Origin: a virus | Strand: one strand, 5' to 3' | Virus record (IMG/VR): IMGVR_UViG_3300038299_000184 | Span: 1-64,000 of that record | DNA length: 64,000 nucleotides | Shown here: positions 2,937-63,793 of the stretch, piece by piece | Layout of the letters: the number at the start of each line of letters is the position of its first letter | How positions within the stretch are numbered: position 1 is the stretch's first letter | Made by a program: the position numbers and the translations under genes | The notes under the pieces: generated by a model | Database searches by the model: none | Seen by the model: only the letters and a program-made list of their open reading frames with translations | Told to the model about the DNA's origin: nothing

Positions 2937-3326
2937 ATGGACTGGGAGAAAACTTTCGAGTCAGCTATCCTCAAGGGGCTGAACTCATACATGAAGACTA
3001 AGAATATAGAGCACGAAGTTCTAGAATCTGATAATGATCTTATTGTAAACATCTATAAAATGGAGAGTGGTGACATAAATATTGTTAATTCATATGGTGA
3101 TCTATTGGTGGAGTATGCTGACCCAGATGCCACACACAGACGTTCTATATTCTTCAACCCCTCCAAGGCTCGTCTGGGTGACTTCGATGTATTCGAGGAC
3201 ATCATACCAGTAGTTAGGATATCCTCATCAATACCTAGTAAAGGTGGCTGGACAAACGAACAGATAGATGTTGACGATTTTAATACCAGTATTCACAACT
3301 GGTTGGATCAATTGGGTCTTTATTAA
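2937..3326 (+). CDS. unknown protein, 129 aa
   Basis: Begins MDWEKTFESAILKGLNSYMK and shows the same layout as the preceding gene: N-terminal helix, beta-rich body, FDVFEDIIPVV motif. TAAATA followed by 5 nt precedes ATG, a variant of the TAATTA box closer to the T4 late promoter TATAAATA. Its 3' end, coding NWLDQLGLY and stop, lies in a 36-bp sequence repeated after the next gene. Confidence 0.7.
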   Translation: MDWEKTFESAILKGLNSYMKTKNIEHEVLESDNDLIVNIYKMESGDINIVNSYGDLLVEYADPDATHRRSIFFNPSKARLGDFDVFEDIIPVVRISSSIPSKGGWTNEQIDVDDFNTSIHNWLDQLGLY

Positions 3327-3332
3327 TTTGAC
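3297..3332 (+). repeat. 36-bp direct repeat, left copy
   Basis: Matches 4207-4242 with two mismatches. It carries the last codons and stop of the upstream gene plus most of a -35 TTGACA. The two copies exactly bracket the Mom-like gene. Confidence 0.85.
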
Positions 3333-3356
3333 ACCACCCTGTGGTTTGTGTATCAT
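3328..3356 (+). promoter_or_regulatory. early-type promoter of the Mom-like gene
   Basis: TTGACA at 3328-3333, 17 nt, TATCAT at 3351-3356, then 7 nt to ATG 3364. The spacer begins CCACC, as in several other early promoters here. Confidence 0.65.
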
Positions 3357-3363
3357 TGCCCCA

Positions 3364-4200
3364 ATGAGTACATTCAATAAGAAGACAGGTTATAAGATGG
3401 CAACCCGAGAGGTAGGCTATCGTGGGACTAAGTTCTCGCCATACTGCTTCCAAAGACAACTCCGTGATAAAAAGGATGATGGTGTCACCGACACACTAGA
3501 GGAGATGAAAAACTGTGTAGTGAAGCAGATTACATTTAAAGAAGCTCAGAACTTCATCCTAGAATTCGAATGGTTAGGTACTATGGGTACCACAAAATTC
3601 AGCTACGGTGTCTTCACCAATGATAGACTGACCGCTGTGTATTGTTTCGGACTAACCGCTGGCACCGCTGCACTATCCCAAGTATTTGGCGAAGAGAATA
3701 AGAAACGGGGTCTAGTATTAGTACGTGGTGCTTGCGCTCCATGGGCATACAGAAACATGTCTAGCTTTGGTATGGGCAAGGTTTTACCAGCACTACATAA
3801 GGAACGTGACATCGATTATCTAATCGCATACTCCGACCCAGAGGCTGGTGAGATAGGTACAGTATACCAAGCAACCAATTGGAACTTCTATGGTATGACA
3901 GCCCCTGTGAACTATCTAGTTCGCCCAGACGGTAAGCGGTCAGACCCAAAACTGATTTCAAAGTATGCCAAGAAGAAAAACATTACATACGCAGAACAGA
4001 AGCAATTGTTCGTAGACGAAGGTTATACCTTCGAGAGGGGTTCTCCAAAACTTAAATACTTCAAGATCATTGGTAACAAAACCATTCGAAAAGAACTCAC
4101 CAAACAGTTGAAAGTTCCTGTATATAAGTACCTTAAACGTATGGACAACATGGAAGACTTATATGGTGTGTTCAAGGCGCAGATTAAAAATTCAAAATAG
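3364..4200 (+). CDS. Mom-like DNA modification / GNAT-fold protein
   Basis: 278 aa. The central block (YGVFTNDRLTAVYCFG, then LVRGACAP, then IAYSDPEAGEIGTVYQATNW, then FYG) matches what I know of phage Mom-family proteins, whose hallmark is VSYADPxxGHxGxIYxATNF. Mu Mom carries out an acyl-type modification of adenine that protects against restriction enzymes. ATG 3364 is set by a TTGACA/TATCAT promoter 7 nt upstream; the longer ORF would read into the previous gene. The gene is flanked by 36-bp direct repeats, suggesting recent insertion. A different GNAT-like activity cannot be excluded. Confidence 0.6.
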   Translation: MSTFNKKTGYKMATREVGYRGTKFSPYCFQRQLRDKKDDGVTDTLEEMKNCVVKQITFKEAQNFILEFEWLGTMGTTKFSYGVFTNDRLTAVYCFGLTAGTAALSQVFGEENKKRGLVLVRGACAPWAYRNMSSFGMGKVLPALHKERDIDYLIAYSDPEAGEIGTVYQATNWNFYGMTAPVNYLVRPDGKRSDPKLISKYAKKKNITYAEQKQLFVDEGYTFERGSPKLKYFKIIGNKTIRKELTKQLKVPVYKYLKRMDNMEDLYGVFKAQIKNSK

Positions 4201-4677: not shown

Positions 4678-5286
4678 ATGAGTAAATTTGGTTATATAAT
4701 AGAGAAAATCAACAGTATGGTGTCAACAGATTCCCGAATCGATGACATAATGGCTTTAGATGGGCAGGATAGGTTGGACTTACTAGGTAAAACCGAATTT
4801 GCTATTATTACATCCGACAGGGCAGATGGTCACAATGCAGCCATTGGGCAGGAAATTAAGGTAGCTAGAGATGGAGGGTCTAAGGAAGAGATGGAGGCTG
4901 TATTGGCTAGAAACAAGGTCGAGGTAGATGAAGGTAATGCTGCTATGAGGCCAAGTCTTGAAGACCGATTAAAATCCAGTGGGTTCAGTTATATGAAGGT
5001 AGTGGGTAAATTCCCCGAAGATATTACTGGTGTTAGTACGACTGAGGTATCATTTCTAGTATTACTAGACGAAGATAATATACAAGGTGGTATTGATACA
5101 TTAAATAAAATTGCACAAGGTTATAAGCAAGACTCTATTTTAGTGGGTAGTGGTACACAGACACCACGCTACAGTTTTGTTTCAGAAACCAAAATTGACC
5201 CTCTGGGTAGTACATTAGTGCCAGCAACATCTAGTGATGCTTACTCCACAATGTTCAAAGATGGGCAGTACTTCACAGTGTCTTAA
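4678..5286 (+). CDS. unknown protein, 202 aa, late-box gene
   Basis: Begins MSKFGYIIEKINSMVSTDSR. No family is recognised with certainty. The block LLGKTEFAIITSDRADGHN followed by a long helix, then VVGKFPEDITGVSTTEVSFLV and a C-terminal sensor-like stretch, resembles phage proteins of unknown function sometimes noted near nucleotide-binding folds. TAATTA at 4667-4672 is exactly 5 nt before ATG. Confidence 0.7.
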   Translation: MSKFGYIIEKINSMVSTDSRIDDIMALDGQDRLDLLGKTEFAIITSDRADGHNAAIGQEIKVARDGGSKEEMEAVLARNKVEVDEGNAAMRPSLEDRLKSSGFSYMKVVGKFPEDITGVSTTEVSFLVLLDEDNIQGGIDTLNKIAQGYKQDSILVGSGTQTPRYSFVSETKIDPLGSTLVPATSSDAYSTMFKDGQYFTVS

Positions 5287-9796: not shown

Positions 9797-9873
9797 GGTG
9801 TAGGTAGCATAATTGGCAATGCCCTCGGTTGTGATCCGAGAAAATGCGGGATCATACCCCGTCCTATACCCCA
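9797..9873 (+). tRNA. tRNA-His(GUG)
   Basis: An eight-pair acceptor in which encoded G-1 pairs with C73 (GGTGTAGG/CCTATACC), encoded CCA. Anticodon stem CTCGG/CCGAG with loop TTGTGAT gives GTG. Because G-1 is encoded, this tRNA does not need the phage Thg1-like enzyme for its identity nucleotide. Confidence 0.9.
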
Positions 9874-11094: not shown

Positions 11095-11241
11095 ATGAGT
11101 GAAGAAAAGAAAACACCATTCAAGCGAGGAGAAGTTAGGCGACGACAAGATGCCATCAAGTTTGAACCACCACTATACCCTAGACCTTCCAAGGACTGGG
11201 ACTTAAAGAAAGGTCAAAGAAAACTTGACTCTGGTAACTAG
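11095..11241 (+). CDS. small basic protein, 48 aa
   Basis: Begins MSEEKKTPFKRGEVRRRQDA; highly charged, with a proline-rich centre (FEPPLYPRPSKDW). TAATTA (11084-11089) lies 5 nt before ATG, matching the late box. Its 3' end contains the -35 of the tmRNA promoter. No homologue recognised. Confidence 0.6.
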   Translation: MSEEKKTPFKRGEVRRRQDAIKFEPPLYPRPSKDWDLKKGQRKLDSGN

Positions 11242-11272: not shown

Positions 11273-11616
11273 GGGGCTGATTTGGTTTCGACTTTAATCA
11301 ATAATTACCCAGTATCAACCAAGGTGGTTCCAAGACCTGCTGATAAGATCAACCAAAATGACGAAAATACAGTCGCTCTAGCTGCCTAGGCAGTGAGCCA
11401 CACAGGACTTCTATCAACCCTGTATGGCTAAGAGTAATAAGATAGTGCATTCGGTGTAAGACATCGACAGCTACCCATACAGGCTGTTAAATACAGGATG
11501 GTGAGTCAGATATCATACACTGACTAGTGTGAACAACGAAATGGTTCAAAAATGGTTGTAGACGTACTGAGATACGATGATTAAAACAAGCAGTTCAACT
11601 CTGCACAGCTCCACCA
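11273..11616 (+). ncRNA. ssrA: tmRNA (transfer-messenger RNA)
   Basis: 344 nt. Starts GGGGCTGATTTGGTTTCGAC and ends GTTCAACTCTGCACAGCTCC plus ACCA; the ends form the alanyl acceptor GGGGCTG/CAGCTCC with the conserved G3-U70 wobble. The tag reading frame ends NDENTVALAA and stop (11387-11389), with INQ codons just before; the exact resume codon is uncertain. tmRNA rescues stalled ribosomes and marks the product for ClpXP. It is one-piece, with downstream pseudoknot-like repeats, and a terminator follows. The phage also encodes ClpX at 62519. Confidence 0.95.
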
Positions 11617-11617
11617 T

Positions 11618-11653
11618 AATAGCCCACCTTGTAATGAGGTGGGCTATTATTTA
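11618..11653 (+). terminator. terminator after tmRNA
   Basis: A 12-bp perfect stem AATAGCCCACCT/AGGTGGGCTATT with a 7-nt loop, then a weak T-rich tail. Confidence 0.7.
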
Positions 11654-11698: not shown

Positions 11699-11944
11699 AT
11701 GAAAACACTACTAGGAAGATTTAAAAACTGGAAGACCACACTACTTGGTGCCCTTGCCGCTGCACTCATTGCTGCTGGTGGTTCACTATCAGAGGGTCAA
11801 GTAGATTACAAGATCATACTTGCTGCCGCTGGTGCTGCCGCGATTGGCTCTGTACTCAAAGACCCTGCTAAGAAAGTAAAACCTGTTAAGGGTATCGCTA
11901 AAGCCATTGTGGTTGATGAGGAAACTGGGGAGGATGTTGGGTAA
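11699..11944 (+). CDS. putative holin
   Basis: 81 aa. A basic N-terminus (MKTLLGRFKNWKTT) is followed by two alanine-rich hydrophobic segments (about 14-27 and 39-52) separated by a short acidic turn, then a charged C-terminal tail. This matches small phage holins that permeabilise the inner membrane. It is directly followed by spanin genes, which supports a lysis role. No endolysin is adjacent. TAA and the next ATG overlap (TAATG). Confidence 0.6.
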   Translation: MKTLLGRFKNWKTTLLGALAAALIAAGGSLSEGQVDYKIILAAAGAAAIGSVLKDPAKKVKPVKGIAKAIVVDEETGEDVG

Positions 11945-14352: not shown

Positions 14353-14426
14353 CGATACATAGCTCAACGGTAGAGTACCACCTAATGGGGGTGGAGATTG
14401 CGGTTCAATTCCGTGTGTATCGACCA
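14353..14426 (+). tRNA. tRNA, anticodon formally AUG (His?), atypical loop
   Basis: A regular 74-nt cloverleaf: acceptor CGATACA/TGTATCG, D-stem GCTC/GAGT, T-arm TGCGG/CCGTG with loop TTCAATT, discriminator A, encoded CCA. Anticodon stem CCACC/GGTGG closes loop TAATGGG, which formally gives ATG but has A at position 33 instead of U. C1-G72 and A73 are not His-like. Amino acid unassigned; it may be non-canonical or mutated. Confidence 0.7.
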
Positions 14427-36537: not shown

Positions 36538-36591
36538 ATGCATAATTAGACTAAAGTGCGTAAAAGACAAGAACATTGCATAATTAAATAC

Positions 36592-37290
36592 ATGTCCAAC
36601 AAATACAAACTTCTTTACGGTAACGCAACTGAAGAAACATATAAGTCACTAGATGTCGTAACTGAGCAGTCTAACAAAGACCAACCCAAGGCAATGTACC
36701 TAGAAGGTGTGTATGGAGAGGCAGGGAAGCTCAACAAGAATGGTCGTGTTTATGACTTCGATGATGCTCTTAAGGATATCGATAGATATAACAACGAGAT
36801 TATCAAATCAAATCGTGCATATAACGAACTAAATCACCCATCTACGCCAGATATCGATCTAGAGAGAGCATGTGATAGAACTGTATCACTTAGAATGGAG
36901 AGTGATGGTACAATTATTGGTCGTTCTCTTGTTATGGATACACCAATGGGTAGAATCCAAAAGGCATTAATAGAGTCTGGTGGTTCTGTTGGTAAATCAT
37001 CCCGTGCTATGGGACAGATTGCTGAGAAGAACCATAGAGGTGACGCATGTAACTATGTTAATGGTGTTCACTACGTTTGTTTTGACTCTGTACAAGACCC
37101 TTCAGTGGGTCGTGCCCTGCCAGACGCCCTACTTGAACAACGAGAGTGGATCATTGGTGAAAACGGTGGATTCCTAGCACAACCACTCGACGATTTCCGT
37201 TCATCACTCGATAATATACCTAAAGTTAAAAGAGATATGTATATCGCTGAACAGTATATCAAGTTCATTAATGCTATTGGTAGAGTTTAA
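36592..37290 (+). CDS. prohead core protease (gp21-like)
   Basis: 232 aa. Catalytic His in AYNELNHP (about residue 82) and catalytic Ser in GKSSRAM (about 136-137), as in the S77 family. It cuts scaffold, capsid and internal proteins after (L/I)xE during head maturation. TAATTA is exactly 5 nt before ATG 36592. Divergent from the portal gene; its 3' end overlaps the convergent gp15-like gene by 4 nt. Confidence 0.9.
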   Translation: MSNKYKLLYGNATEETYKSLDVVTEQSNKDQPKAMYLEGVYGEAGKLNKNGRVYDFDDALKDIDRYNNEIIKSNRAYNELNHPSTPDIDLERACDRTVSLRMESDGTIIGRSLVMDTPMGRIQKALIESGGSVGKSSRAMGQIAEKNHRGDACNYVNGVHYVCFDSVQDPSVGRALPDALLEQREWIIGENGGFLAQPLDDFRSSLDNIPKVKRDMYIAEQYIKFINAIGRV

Positions 37291-46437: not shown

Positions 46438-47910
46438 ATGAAATTTATATTACCACTCCAGACAGACCAGTACAAGATGAATGGTCACTTCCGCATGTTA
46501 CCAGATGACGTTGAAACTGTTTATTCATACATGGAAGCCCGTAATGGTGCTGCATATGATGCAACTACATTCTTCGGTCTCCAGTACTACATCAAACGTT
46601 ATCTCCTTCCAGTTATTACTAAGGAAGATTTAGACTTCGCTGAGAAGTTCGCTAAACAGACGAACTTCCACGACAAACCTTTCAACCGCGAAGGTTGGGA
46701 TTACATCGTGAACGAACTTGGTGGTAAGCTACCTATTCGTATCAAAGCAGTTAAAGAAGGCACCACAGTTCCTACGGGTAATGTTTTGATGACCATCGAG
46801 AACACTGATGATAAGTGTGCATGGTTGACTAACTATATCGAAACACTGCTCATGAAGTTGTGGTACCCGCTCACAGTGGCATACCGTAGTAATCAGACAT
46901 CTGAATATCTTATGCAGGGGTTTGATGAATCATCTGACATGCCACGAGAGGTTGCTAAACACCTATACATAGATTTTGGATATCGTGGCGTGACTTCTGA
47001 AGAGCAAGCCGCTATCGGTGGCGCTGCACACATTCTATCTAACTATGGTAGTGATACAAATGCAGGCACACTTCTTCTACACGAATATTACAACAACAAT
47101 GTTTGGGGTGATGTTGGAGAACTTAACTATGGCGTTCCAGCGAGTGAACACAGCATTGGTACAGCCAAGGGTGTTGATGGTGAGTTTGAATATTACCTCA
47201 AAATGCTTCAAGAATTCCCAGACGGACTACTTTCAATTGTTGCGGATTCTTACAACGTGGAACGCTTCGTTACAGAATATACCAAAGAAATGAAACCAGT
47301 TATTCTAGAGCGTTGGATGATGGGTAAGGGAGAGTTGAATAGAACAATTCTCCGTCCAGATAGTGATCGATTTGAGGGTGATACACCCTCTAAACAGATT
47401 ATATGGTTCCATGAAGAACTCGACAAGATTTTTGGACACACTGTGAACAGTAAGGGTAAGAAAGTTCTACATCCCGCAATTGGTGTGATATATTCAGACG
47501 GTATCAGCGACACTGATATTAAAAATATTATTACCGATCTAATCGATGCGGGTTGGTCTGTTGAGAACTTGGCACTTGGTCAAGGTGGTGGGTTGCTTAA
47601 TGCAGGTGATAATAATACTCGTGACACAAATCGTTTTGCTATCAAGTGTTCTGCACAGAAACAAGGTGGTAAGTGGGTTGATATTCAGAAAGATCCATTG
47701 GATAAAACCAAAAAGTCTAAGTCTGGTCGCTTGATGCTATTCAAAGACAGTAAAGGTAATTACACCACATTAAAACATGATGCACTCCCAAGTTCTATTT
47801 ATGTTGGTGTGGATAAAATGTTGAAAGACGAACTAGTAACAGTATTCGAGAATGGTGAATTGTTAGTCGAATACACTGTACAAGATGTACGAGATCAGTT
47901 AGCATTATAG
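46438..47910 (+). CDS. nadV: nicotinamide phosphoribosyltransferase (NAMPT)
   Basis: 490 aa, the usual NAMPT length (about 490). YSYMEARNGAAYDATTFFGL, then DFGYRGVTSEEQAAIGGAAH, LLSIVADSYNVERFV, HPAIGVIYSDGISDTDIKNI and LALGQGGGLL fit the family, including the catalytic His region and PRPP site. It makes NMN from nicotinamide and PRPP. With the NMNAT domain at 32892 it gives a two-step NAD+ salvage route. It is followed within 1 nt by surface-sugar genes. Confidence 0.9.
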   Translation: MKFILPLQTDQYKMNGHFRMLPDDVETVYSYMEARNGAAYDATTFFGLQYYIKRYLLPVITKEDLDFAEKFAKQTNFHDKPFNREGWDYIVNELGGKLPIRIKAVKEGTTVPTGNVLMTIENTDDKCAWLTNYIETLLMKLWYPLTVAYRSNQTSEYLMQGFDESSDMPREVAKHLYIDFGYRGVTSEEQAAIGGAAHILSNYGSDTNAGTLLLHEYYNNNVWGDVGELNYGVPASEHSIGTAKGVDGEFEYYLKMLQEFPDGLLSIVADSYNVERFVTEYTKEMKPVILERWMMGKGELNRTILRPDSDRFEGDTPSKQIIWFHEELDKIFGHTVNSKGKKVLHPAIGVIYSDGISDTDIKNIITDLIDAGWSVENLALGQGGGLLNAGDNNTRDTNRFAIKCSAQKQGGKWVDIQKDPLDKTKKSKSGRLMLFKDSKGNYTTLKHDALPSSIYVGVDKMLKDELVTVFENGELLVEYTVQDVRDQLAL

Positions 47911-52379: not shown

Positions 52380-53540
52380 ATGTACCATTCAATCACCAAG
52401 TTTAATACTACTGAGGGTAATCTAGACTTTGACAGACTCGTCAAAGAACTACAGGACAACGTAGATCTAGGATTCATCAATATGAAGACTAAGGGCGACC
52501 TAACTCTTTATGATTATTCCAAGAGCTGTACATATGAGCGAGCATGGAACGATGCTACTCGTATCGCTCGTGGTCTGGTTCTGGACATCCCTAACAAAGA
52601 AGTTGTGGCTCTTCCTTTCGAGAAGTTCTACAACCAAGGGGATGAACACGAACTCAATGGTCTCGAACTTGGTGATTTTTGTAAAGGAGGTTTCTTCGAA
52701 AAGATGGATGGATCTTGTGTCATCATTTACTTCTATAATGGGGAGTGGTGTGTTAACACCCGTGGCTCATTCGACTCTGATCAAGCTATCAAGGGTAAGG
52801 AATTACTTGACTCACAAATCGATACACAGCTCCTTATGAAGGGTGTAACATACATTTGTGAAGTAATTTATAAAGATAACAAAATTGTTGTAAATTACGG
52901 TGATCGCGAAGGTCTGGTACTCACTGGTAAATATTACTCTAAAGGTGATAGTGATATCTTCCACTTTGGTGAGGAATGTCTAACTGACCCACAATGTGTT
53001 AAAATTTTCTGTGAACTATTAGGGTTTCAACAACCACAAGTTCACTACTTCGGAAGTATTGAACAAGCGAAAGCTGCAACTGATTCGTTCACCAAGGATG
53101 AAGAAGGTTTTGTATACCGCTCTGGTAACGGAGTCCGTGTTAAGATCAAGGGTGATGAGTACTGTCGAGTTCATGGTTTGATCTCATATCATACACCACT
53201 GTTTCTATGGCGTGAATTCGTAGAGGGGGGTCACCAAGGTTGTCAAGAACGTAAGAAGGATATCCCAGAGGAATTATGGGATGAATTAGAAGAATGGCTT
53301 GACATCTTCGAGAAAAACCACCAGTATGTAGTTGAACAGGTTAAGGAACAGGCTAAAATCTTCGCACATCTGAGCAACAAAGAATTAGGTCTTGAAATGT
53401 CTGATATTAAACAGACTCACAAAGGTCTATTCTTCTCGCTCCGAAATGACAAACAATTCGGTACAATCAACTCCACGTCACACAGAACAATCTGTAACAT
53501 GTTCGAACCAACCAACAACACCATTAAGGAGTTATACTAA
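52380..53540 (+). CDS. T4 Rnl1-type RNA ligase
   Basis: 386 aa (T4 Rnl1 is 374). Adenylation motif I EKMDGS with Lys near 108, upstream IARGLVLD and downstream VNTRGSFDSD and EGFVYRSGNGVRVKIKGDEY (motifs IV and V). T4 Rnl1 reseals tRNA cut in the anticodon loop by host PrrC. The phage also carries a kinase and a HAD phosphatase that could prepare ends. Confidence 0.9.
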   Translation: MYHSITKFNTTEGNLDFDRLVKELQDNVDLGFINMKTKGDLTLYDYSKSCTYERAWNDATRIARGLVLDIPNKEVVALPFEKFYNQGDEHELNGLELGDFCKGGFFEKMDGSCVIIYFYNGEWCVNTRGSFDSDQAIKGKELLDSQIDTQLLMKGVTYICEVIYKDNKIVVNYGDREGLVLTGKYYSKGDSDIFHFGEECLTDPQCVKIFCELLGFQQPQVHYFGSIEQAKAATDSFTKDEEGFVYRSGNGVRVKIKGDEYCRVHGLISYHTPLFLWREFVEGGHQGCQERKKDIPEELWDELEEWLDIFEKNHQYVVEQVKEQAKIFAHLSNKELGLEMSDIKQTHKGLFFSLRNDKQFGTINSTSHRTICNMFEPTNNTIKELY

Positions 53541-56039: not shown

Positions 56040-57101
56040 ATGGAACAAGCAACAATTCAAGAGATCCTAGAGATCAACGAACACCCTAATGCAGATGCAC
56101 TCGAACTGGCAACAATTCTTGGCTGGCAAGTAGTGATCAAAAAGGATCAATTCAAAGTAGGTGATAAAGTGGTGTACGTAGGACTCGATTCTATTCTACC
56201 ACCACACGAAGCATTCGAATTCCTAGCCAAACAGAAGTACCGCATCAAGACGGCTAAACTCCGTGGTGAGATGTCCTATGGTATTGTGTTCAGTATGGGT
56301 ACATTGATTAATGTCGCTATTGAGCAATATCGTAGAGACCATCTCATATCTTTAGATGTACCAGTGGGTCATGATTTCGACCACATCAACATTGGTGATG
56401 ATGTCACCGAGGTTATGGGTGTTAAGAAGTACGAGAAGCCTGTTCCTAAGTGTCAAGATGCTAAAGGTGGTTTCCCTACCACAATTCTTCGCAAGACTGA
56501 TGAGGAGCGTGTACAGAACATTCCACACATCCTTGACGAGATTGGTGACCGTGAGATCTACATCACTGTAAAGGCTGATGGTAGCTCACTAACAGTTCTT
56601 AAGGTGGATGATGAACTGTCAGTATGTTCCCGTAACCTGCTACTGAAGGAGCCAGAAAGTATCCATTCAGCTTCCAACTTCTGGGCTGTTACATATAAGT
56701 ATGGTTTGGATGAAATCCCTAGTGGTTACTATGTACAGGCAGAACTTATCGGACCTAGCATCCAAAGCAACCCACATGGTGTTGATAGTTTGGAGATTCG
56801 TGTATTCAACGTAGGAATCATTCGTAAGGGTAACACACAGTTGCCATTGGATTATGATGACATGGTCACTTTCTGTAACTACCACAACCTTCCTATGACT
56901 GAACTTGTATATCGTGGTAAGAAGAACTTCGAGACTATTGATGACCTTGAGGAGATTGCCAATGCTGTTAGATACGAGAACGGTAAGATCGGTGAAGGCG
57001 TTGTTATCCGCTACACTGAATCCGAAGATGATTTCAAGATGCAAAAACCCTTAAGTTTCAAGATGATTAGCCCTAAGTATGCATTGAAGCATGGTGAATA
57101 A
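56040..57101 (+). CDS. RNA ligase, DraRnl (Rnl5) type
   Basis: 353 aa (Deinococcus DraRnl is 342). An N-terminal OB-like domain typical of this family (EINEHPNADALELATILGWQ, then GDKVVYVGLDSILPP) precedes the adenylation domain, with motif I TVKADGSS (Lys near 178), SVCSRN and EGVVIRY as later motifs. DraRnl seals nicks with 3'-OH RNA on duplexes. A second RNA ligase beside the Rnl1-type one widens repair options. The next gene overlaps by 11 nt. Confidence 0.9.
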   Translation: MEQATIQEILEINEHPNADALELATILGWQVVIKKDQFKVGDKVVYVGLDSILPPHEAFEFLAKQKYRIKTAKLRGEMSYGIVFSMGTLINVAIEQYRRDHLISLDVPVGHDFDHINIGDDVTEVMGVKKYEKPVPKCQDAKGGFPTTILRKTDEERVQNIPHILDEIGDREIYITVKADGSSLTVLKVDDELSVCSRNLLLKEPESIHSASNFWAVTYKYGLDEIPSGYYVQAELIGPSIQSNPHGVDSLEIRVFNVGIIRKGNTQLPLDYDDMVTFCNYHNLPMTELVYRGKKNFETIDDLEEIANAVRYENGKIGEGVVIRYTESEDDFKMQKPLSFKMISPKYALKHGE

Positions 57102-62518: not shown

Positions 62519-63793
62519 ATGGGAGATAATAAAAATAAGAAATGTGATCTTTGTAATGAAGATGATTCAAGCGTCAATATCGCACAAGTTTCAACAGACC
62601 CCAGTGTCGTAATTTGTGAGGTGTGTGCAAGGAAAATTAACAATTACTTTATCGAGAAGCGTATCAAAGAGAAGGGTGGTATAATCAGCGATCTACCAGA
62701 TACTGAGGATCTATTCCCCTACGAAATTTCTGAAAAGTTGAGTAACTACATCATTGGCCAAGAAATTGCTAAAGAGAAACTATCAGTTGCGGTGTACAAC
62801 CACTACCTTCGTATTCAAGATGTCGAGGACGGTGAGGAAATGGATAAATCCAACATCCTAGCATTTGGACCTACAGGAACTGGTAAGACACTACTTGCTA
62901 AGACACTTGCTAAGATTCTAGACGTACCGTTTGTGGTCGCAGATGCCACCACAGTGACCGAGGCAGGTTATGTAGGTGAAGATGTCGAGAATATCGTACT
63001 AAAGCTCCTACGGGAGGCTGACGGTGATGTTGAGAAGGCTGAACGTGGCATCATCTATATTGACGAGATCGATAAGATTGGTTCAAAGAATGGTAGTACT
63101 TCAATTACTCGTGACGTATCGGGTGAAGGTGTTCAACAGGCTTTGCTTAAGATTATCGAAGGTACTGAATGTAATGTACCCGAAGGAGGTGGTCGTAAGC
63201 ATCCAAATCAGAATTACATCACAATCGATACATCCAAAATTCTTTTCATCTGTGGCGGTGCATTCGTAGGTCTTGATAAGATCATCGAGAAACGTCTCAC
63301 AGACAAATGTGAAACAGCCAACACCCGATTAGGGTTTGGTGCCGAAATGACCAGAGCGGGTTCTGTTGATCCCCTTAAAGGAATTGATAATATTTATGAA
63401 TATGCAGAACCAGCAGACATGTATAAGTTCGGACTCATTCCAGAATTCATCGGGCGACTCCCCGTATTCTGCCCTTTGAAAGAACTCACTCGTGATGATC
63501 TTATACGTATCATCACAGAGCCGTCCAATAACATCCTCACACAGTTCGAGAAGATCTTCACCAAGAGTAATATTGACATGAAGATTTCACCATCTGCCAT
63601 GGAAGCAATTGCTGATGAAGCCATCTTGAAGAAGACAGGGGCACGAGGGTTGCGTAGTATCTTTGAGCGTGTTTTCCACAACATCATTTACAACATTCAT
63701 GAGTACGTCAATGCTGATTCCATTACCATCACTAAGAACACCGTTATGAAGGGCGCAAAGCCTCGTATTAAATACCCTAAAAAGGTAGGTTAG
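62519..63793 (+). CDS. clpX: ClpX ATP-dependent unfoldase
   Basis: 424 aa, equal to E. coli ClpX (424 aa). Zinc-binding domain Cys 9, 12, 33, 36; Walker A GPTGTGKT (117-124); pore-1 loop GYVG (150-153); Walker B IIYIDEID (178-185); RKH loop (226-228); ClpP-docking loop LGF (271-273, IGF in E. coli). All parts needed for ssrA-tag recognition and ClpP docking are present. It is unusual in a phage and complements the phage tmRNA. Starts 1 nt after the gp26-like gene stop. Confidence 0.95.
   Translation: MGDNKNKKCDLCNEDDSSVNIAQVSTDPSVVICEVCARKINNYFIEKRIKEKGGIISDLPDTEDLFPYEISEKLSNYIIGQEIAKEKLSVAVYNHYLRIQDVEDGEEMDKSNILAFGPTGTGKTLLAKTLAKILDVPFVVADATTVTEAGYVGEDVENIVLKLLREADGDVEKAERGIIYIDEIDKIGSKNGSTSITRDVSGEGVQQALLKIIEGTECNVPEGGGRKHPNQNYITIDTSKILFICGGAFVGLDKIIEKRLTDKCETANTRLGFGAEMTRAGSVDPLKGIDNIYEYAEPADMYKFGLIPEFIGRLPVFCPLKELTRDDLIRIITEPSNNILTQFEKIFTKSNIDMKISPSAMEAIADEAILKKTGARGLRSIFERVFHNIIYNIHEYVNADSITITKNTVMKGAKPRIKYPKKVG

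Follow-up and report, generated by a model that had tools for sequence, protein, structure and literature searches.

When a phage genome holds both a tmRNA and a ClpX, do the two form a line of their own, in which the phage marks proteins and then destroys them, or do they serve separate ends within the same genome? This question is raised by the DNA analysed here, a window of 64,000 bases (bases 1-64000 of a linear virus record of 127,787 bases) that comes from a T4-like phage, as indicated by its portal, tail-sheath stabiliser, large terminase and major head protein. A preliminary description, made on the window, had reported a complete 344-nt tmRNA with a tag ending NDENTVALAA and had implied a functional pairing with a phage ClpX. 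The features found around the tmRNA are the following:

11095-11241, plus strand: small conserved ORF that bounds the 457-bp tmRNA cassette on its left (homologue in the relative described below, L128 15567-15707)
11225-11252, plus strand: sigma70-like candidate promoter, TTGACT-16-TATTAT (10 of 12 consensus matches; the number of such sites is not clearly above that of shuffles)
11273-11616, plus strand: one-piece tmRNA gene (ssrA), 344 nt, CCA encoded (Rfam RF00023 and pairings)
11322-11354, plus strand: pseudoknot 1 (PK1), 4+4 bp, immediately ahead of the tag (A50-U66 to U53-A63 and G54-C82 to U57-A79, tmRNA numbering)
11357-11389, plus strand: tag frame NDENTVALAA-stop, from translation; its start is perhaps 11360 (DENTVALAA) or 11375 (ALAA)
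11616-11650, plus strand: 15-bp hairpin, likely terminator, the stem being followed by no more than three T (-23 kcal/mol, z -7.7)
11699-11944, plus strand: holin-like small ORF, right border of the tmRNA cassette (homologue starting at L128 15542)

The identification of the tmRNA rests on a covariance model, on its ends, on its long-range helices and on its tag. The Rfam model RF00023 matches 11273-11616 on the plus strand over its full length (model positions 1-374) with 53.3 bits, i.e., 6 bits above the gathering score of 47, and with E-values of 3.8e-18 (Rfam, whole window) and 4.2e-20 (Rfam, local). ARAGORN, in a scan of the window, calls no tmRNA at this place. The expected long-range pairings can all be written with standard pairs. 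The acceptor, formed by the 5' end GGGGCTGATTTGGTTTCGAC and the 3' end ...CAGCTCCACCA, has 7 bp including G3-U338, the equivalent of the G3-U70 alanine identity pair, and ends in the encoded CCA; such a G3-U pair is a mark of alanine RNAs. The P2 helix comprises 7+5+5 bp, with strands lying about 240-290 nt apart, the T-stem (GCAG/CTGC) has 4 bp in place of 5, and the H5 hairpin (CTGC-CTAG-GCAG) encloses the stop codon of the tag. Candidate pseudoknots PK1 to PK4 occur in the correct order, and we regard PK2-PK4 only as compatible with a tmRNA because, in a generic and non-discriminating pseudoknot scan, their region does not exceed dinucleotide shuffles. The complete tmRNA of the preliminary description is thus confirmed: its coordinates are exact, the model matches from end to end, the acceptor is of the alanine type, and the tag frame is found.

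The open tag frame reads ...AAC CAA AAT GAC GAA AAT ACA GTC GCT CTA GCT GCC TAG, i.e., ...NQNDENTVALAA-TAG. In the E. coli tmRNA, about 11 nt separate PK1 from the resume codon, and an A is required four bases before this codon. Here, PK1 ends at nt 82 of the tmRNA, within the CAA codon of the tag frame. The A at -4 suits either GAC at nt 88 (DENTVALAA) or GCT at nt 103 (ALAA), the latter having before it the very AGTC that is found in E. coli, and a distance of about 11 nt points to nt 94. If the entire NDEN part were translated, the distance between PK1 and the tag would be shorter than that of E. coli. With more than one candidate resume codon, translation of the NDEN part is uncertain; the ALAA end is retained under each of these candidates. 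The change in SspB use that was first suggested would hinge on the part of the tag ahead of ALAA.

The 15-bp hairpin begins at the last A of the encoded CCA. It has no long T run, and we consider it a probable, not a certain, terminator; the terminator scan does not flag it. Between the tmRNA and clpX there are 51 kb, and the tmRNA is probably carried on a transcription unit of its own.

The second half of the question concerns the protease, for which three genes have to be considered:

62519-63793, plus strand: clpX, 424 aa, with zinc-binding domain, pore loops, RKH loop and LGF loop intact (alignments)
71978-72538 of the record, outside the window: clpP (PF00574, 229 bits)
36556-37290, plus strand: T4-type head maturation protease (phrog_207, E 4.8e-41)

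The phage ClpX can be aligned over its whole length with that of E. coli (PDB 8e91, E 1.8e-119), in agreement with the full-length protein with intact pore loops and LGF loop that had been described at 62519-63793. In its N-terminal C4 zinc-binding domain, C9, C12, C33 and C36 are invariant in the alignment; the Pfam zinc-finger model is absent from the Pfam matches of the protein. It also possesses the Walker A and B motifs, the pore-1 loop GYVG, the pore-2 loop SITRDVSGEG and the RKH loop GGRKHP. In E. coli ClpX, cryo-EM located the residues by which the ssrA tail is read, i.e., Tyr153, Val154, Thr199, Val202, Arg228 and His230, which bind the Ala-Ala tail (PMC7652416). The motifs that hold these six residues (the two pore loops and the RKH loop) are identical in the phage and E. 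coli proteins. The earlier proposal that the end of the tag suits ClpX therefore holds, the ALAA end being present and the ssrA-reading motifs being all kept.

The preliminary description had also considered that the phage might redirect the ClpP of its host, and had suggested looking for a phage clpP elsewhere in the genome. Such a gene is found in the same record, 8.2 kb beyond clpX, and its catalytic triad (S94/H119/D168) is intact. As the phage encodes its own ClpP, that of the host need not be redirected; as a main idea, redirection was set aside once clpP had been found and is no longer the natural reading. Compared with bacterial ClpP, and with the E. coli system in particular, the phage ClpP has an N-terminal axial loop that is 3 residues shorter and lacks the C-terminal tail. 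The best PHROG match of this protein is the head-maturation family phrog_94, which would make it a head maturation protease unrelated to ClpX. We find this hardly tenable: the protein matches PDB entries of true ClpP along its full length and with a higher score (204 bits, against 163), and clpP travels with clpX in a related phage. Moreover, a separate T4-type head protease adjoins the portal gene, so that head maturation can do without ClpP, and on the strength of this protease and of the closeness to true ClpP the assignment was rejected.

Searches for SmpB, SspB and ClpS in the 127.8 kb of linear sequence of the record found none of them, and PF01668 (SmpB) gives zero matches in this record, which is possibly incomplete and whose missing part could carry SmpB. 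Since SmpB is not found in the record, rescue would have to use the SmpB of the host.

Among the relatives found, the nearest is IMGVR_UViG_3300009130_000031, a record of 61,757 bases that is collinear with this phage and bears on whether tmRNA and ClpXP form a unit. The two small genes that border the tmRNA cassette are 457 bp apart here, with the tmRNA, and 24 bp apart in the relative, without it; no tmRNA above the Rfam cut-off is present anywhere in the 61,757 bases of the relative's record. On the other hand, the relative keeps ClpX (76%) and ClpP (74%), the ClpP-docking loop of the IGF type reading LGF in this phage and IGF in the relative, and the shortened axial loop and absent C-terminal tail of ClpP being common to both phages. 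Because the differences from the relative lie mainly at third codon positions (57% third-position and 12% second-position codon differences for ClpX, 53% and 10% for ClpP), both proteins are under purifying selection, i.e., selected to work. The interval between clpX and clpP measures 8.2 kb here (record 63793-71978) and 1.9 kb in the relative (L006 11254-13149); the extra DNA includes a homing endonuclease (record 65668-66468). Since a syntenic relative has ClpXP but no tmRNA, the latter is a cassette whose gain here, or loss from the relative, took place independently of ClpXP. The two phages constitute a natural pair for asking whether a phage needs the tag or the release of ribosomes.

We also surveyed the co-occurrence of these genes more widely, excluding from the tallies "phage" ClpX records that resemble host contamination (tig-clpP-clpX). 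Among 45 other ClpX-bearing IMG/VR records, many of which are fragments, a tmRNA exceeds the Rfam cut-off in two and a ClpP-family match exceeds its cut-off in 23. In large phage records with ClpX and ClpP, a tmRNA is present in 5/9 (Bacillus phage G, Lak-A1, Lak-B2, LR756504 and LR756511), none being found over the cut-off in Phosso, Atu_ph07, phi30-3 and SCTP-2; in large phage records without a ClpX-level match, two identical-length records being counted once, it is present in 2/9 (LR756500 and LR756508). An association of tmRNA with ClpX in large phages can be neither claimed nor excluded from these counts, because both sets are small and unmatched, the nine ClpX records were picked for matching ClpX, and the search filters were stricter. 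Of the functional pairing implied at the outset, the co-occurrence of an intact tmRNA and an intact ClpX stands; the pairing itself is weakened by the relative and several phages that have ClpXP without tmRNA, and by some that have tmRNA without ClpX, and we regard it as possible, not demonstrated.

ARAGORN detects two of the eight other phage tmRNAs above the Rfam cut-off (L088-L090 and L143-L147). As it overlooks several of these in addition to the present one, surveys based on ARAGORN probably undercount phage tmRNAs. Searches for close counterparts of the tmRNA gave little: the tag pattern NDENTVAL(A) occurs in zero viral contigs and at five genome loci, in none of which ARAGORN calls a tmRNA; a combined pattern of 5' end and tag found nothing; and blastn of the tmRNA against phages returned nothing meaningful. 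Two phage tmRNAs in ClpX-bearing records (L088 and L090) have near-identical tags, ALTGEVSYAMAA and ALTGKNSYAMAA.

How might these genes act together during infection? Once expressed, the one-piece phage tmRNA would be charged by the host alanyl-tRNA synthetase and brought to stalled ribosomes by host SmpB and EF-Tu. It would append a tag ending in ALAA and release the ribosomes trapped on broken mRNA, and the tagged fragments would be degraded by ClpXP, be it an assembly of phage ClpX and ClpP, that of the host, or both. Stranded ribosomes could plausibly arise from infection, from host RNA decay, or from defences that cut mRNA or tRNA. Because it is gained or lost independently of ClpXP, the tmRNA is best seen as one item of a set for the upkeep of translation; the record also carries at least 15 tRNAs, a CCA-adding enzyme and two RNA ligases. 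We thus think it probable, with real room for doubt, that this is a working phage tmRNA within such a set, that its tag is readable by both phage and host ClpXP, and that ClpXP is a general phage protease able to clear tagged proteins as well. Against this reading count the T-stem of 4 bp, the short stretch between PK1 and the tag should all of NDEN be translated, the PK2-PK4 scan that does not exceed shuffles, a promoter that is no more than a consensus match, and the linear form of the record, whose missing part could carry SmpB.

Three other readings have to be weighed against this one. The tmRNA may serve for the release of ribosomes only, tag degradation being incidental and left to host proteases, and phage ClpXP having another task such as the removal of host or phage regulators. 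Indeed, phages commonly have ClpXP but no tmRNA, the relative retains ClpXP in just this state, and the lambda O protein is known to be removed by ClpXP (cited in PMC6102473), which counts in the same direction. The tag, however, has a perfect ALAA end and the ClpX motifs that read it are all kept, so that degradation by phage ClpX would be hard to avoid if the two are co-expressed; we hold a release-only role to be possible but doubtful. That tmRNA and ClpXP are kept together as a dedicated module, with a phage tag meant for the phage protease and running after host shut-off, seems to us unlikely. It would agree with the presence of tmRNA, clpX and clpP in a single genome, with the recurrence of this trio in the five unrelated large phages named above (with a more distant ClpP-like protein in LR756511), and with the Ala-Ala end of every tag read, that of phage G excepted. 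The arguments to the contrary are the 51 kb and the probably separate transcription unit of the tmRNA, the syntenic relative with ClpXP and no tmRNA, the scarcity of tmRNA in the other ClpX-bearing IMG/VR records (just 2/45, many being fragments), the large-phage counts (5/9 with ClpX, 2/9 without), too few for an association, and the tag of phage G, which ends QVA.

Less probable still is the wider form of this idea, in which some large phages run a tag-and-degrade line of their own, the phage tmRNA marking proteins and a phage ClpXP insulated from host adaptors destroying them after host shut-off. If this were true, the TV-ALAA, MAA and VAA tags and the short axial loop of ClpP would reflect the adaptation of tag and protease, the one to the other. 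Finally, the tmRNA might be a copy in decay, or a decoy, in competition with the host tmRNA for SmpB, for which the tag-less tmRNA of mycobacteriophage DS6A offers a precedent (PMC4131195; PMC11915505). A score that exceeds the Rfam cut-off by only 6 bits, together with the failure of ARAGORN to call the gene, would fit such a copy. On the contrary, the acceptor, the G-U identity pair, the CCA, the tag frame, the H5 stop and the downstream hairpin are all intact, and a miss by ARAGORN says little, other phage tmRNAs being missed too; a decoy is, in our opinion, very improbable.

Our reading of a working tmRNA in a translation-upkeep set can be placed among the systems already known. Phage tmRNAs were listed in Bacillus phage G and mycobacteriophages by Hudson et al. 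2014 (PMC4131195), and Al-Shayeb et al. 2020 described huge phages that carry tmRNA and SmpB, for which they stated a role in rescue and degradation (PMC7162821). A 2022 survey places them in about 2% of phage genomes, with 402 tmRNA-bearing phages, and proposes the upkeep of translation or the recycling of host proteins as their role (PMC9004378). The Sinorhizobium jumbo phage AP-J-162 is reported to carry a tmRNA, clpX and further Clp proteins (PMC11242549), and Atu_ph07 to have seven Clp proteins while lacking a tmRNA (PMC6102473). In the literature searched, of partial coverage, there is no account of tmRNA, ClpX and ClpP as a phage system. The trio is not new, Bacillus phage G, the Prevotella Lak phages and two other huge phages having it. 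Reports of phage tmRNAs and of the combination of tmRNA with ClpX already exist (PMC4131195, PMC7162821, PMC11242549); this phage provides a new example and no new mechanism.

Compared with the E. coli SsrA-SmpB-ClpXP system, the plan of the tmRNA, the ALAA end of the tag and the reading motifs of ClpX are alike, but the phage tag has TV instead of Y before ALAA, and SmpB would have to be supplied by the host. Bacillus phage G (JN638751) similarly combines a tmRNA (67.6 bits; PMC4131195) with ClpP (gp257) and ClpX (gp258); it is an unrelated large phage, its tag AKLNITNNELQVA lacks the Ala-Ala end, and its ClpP and ClpX genes are adjacent, whereas they are 8 kb apart here. The Prevotella Lak phages A1 and B2 and the huge phages LR756504 and LR756511 each have a tmRNA above the Rfam cut-off with ClpX and ClpP matches, the latter distant in LR756511 (76 bits), but their genomes measure 540-636 kb and their tags end in MAA or VAA, in place of LAA. 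The tmRNA candidates of the Lak phages (L146 and L147) score 54.0 and 47.3 bits, with tags ...INLNDDEI(D/E)FRMAA, and the Lak paper PMC6784885 says nothing of a tmRNA in its text. AP-J-162 differs by its size (471 kb), and in the passages of its description considered here the tmRNA and the Clp proteins are reported separately, with no link proposed. The Methylophilales phage Melnitz is, like this phage, T4-like with a tmRNA, and has a portal that ranks among the closest matches to the present one; unlike here, its tmRNA is in two pieces under a glutamine riboswitch, and PMC9004378 does not mention a Clp protease.

Several other features of this genome deserve mention. More than 10 paralogous proteins, with starts like MSTEYIWFKKGKESKRTADPEGK, are encoded on both strands at 81016-106601 of the record, outside the window (L003, L004); the one copy searched had no PHROG match. 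Beside many phage tRNAs lies a tRNA repair set, made of a T4 Rnl1-like ligase (52380-53540), a second RNA ligase (56040-57101) and a CCA-adding tRNA nucleotidyltransferase (record 75535-76710). A tRNA called His with anticodon ATG (14353-14426) accompanies tRNA-His(gtg) (9798-9873); it is unusual and possibly of another identity, or a miscall. A Mom-family DNA modification protein and an S-adenosylmethionine lyase family protein are encoded close by each other (3268-4200 and 4678-5286) and likely act in counter-defence. Lastly, the phage encodes a nicotinamide phosphoribosyltransferase at 46438-47910 (phrog_448, E 5.8e-125).
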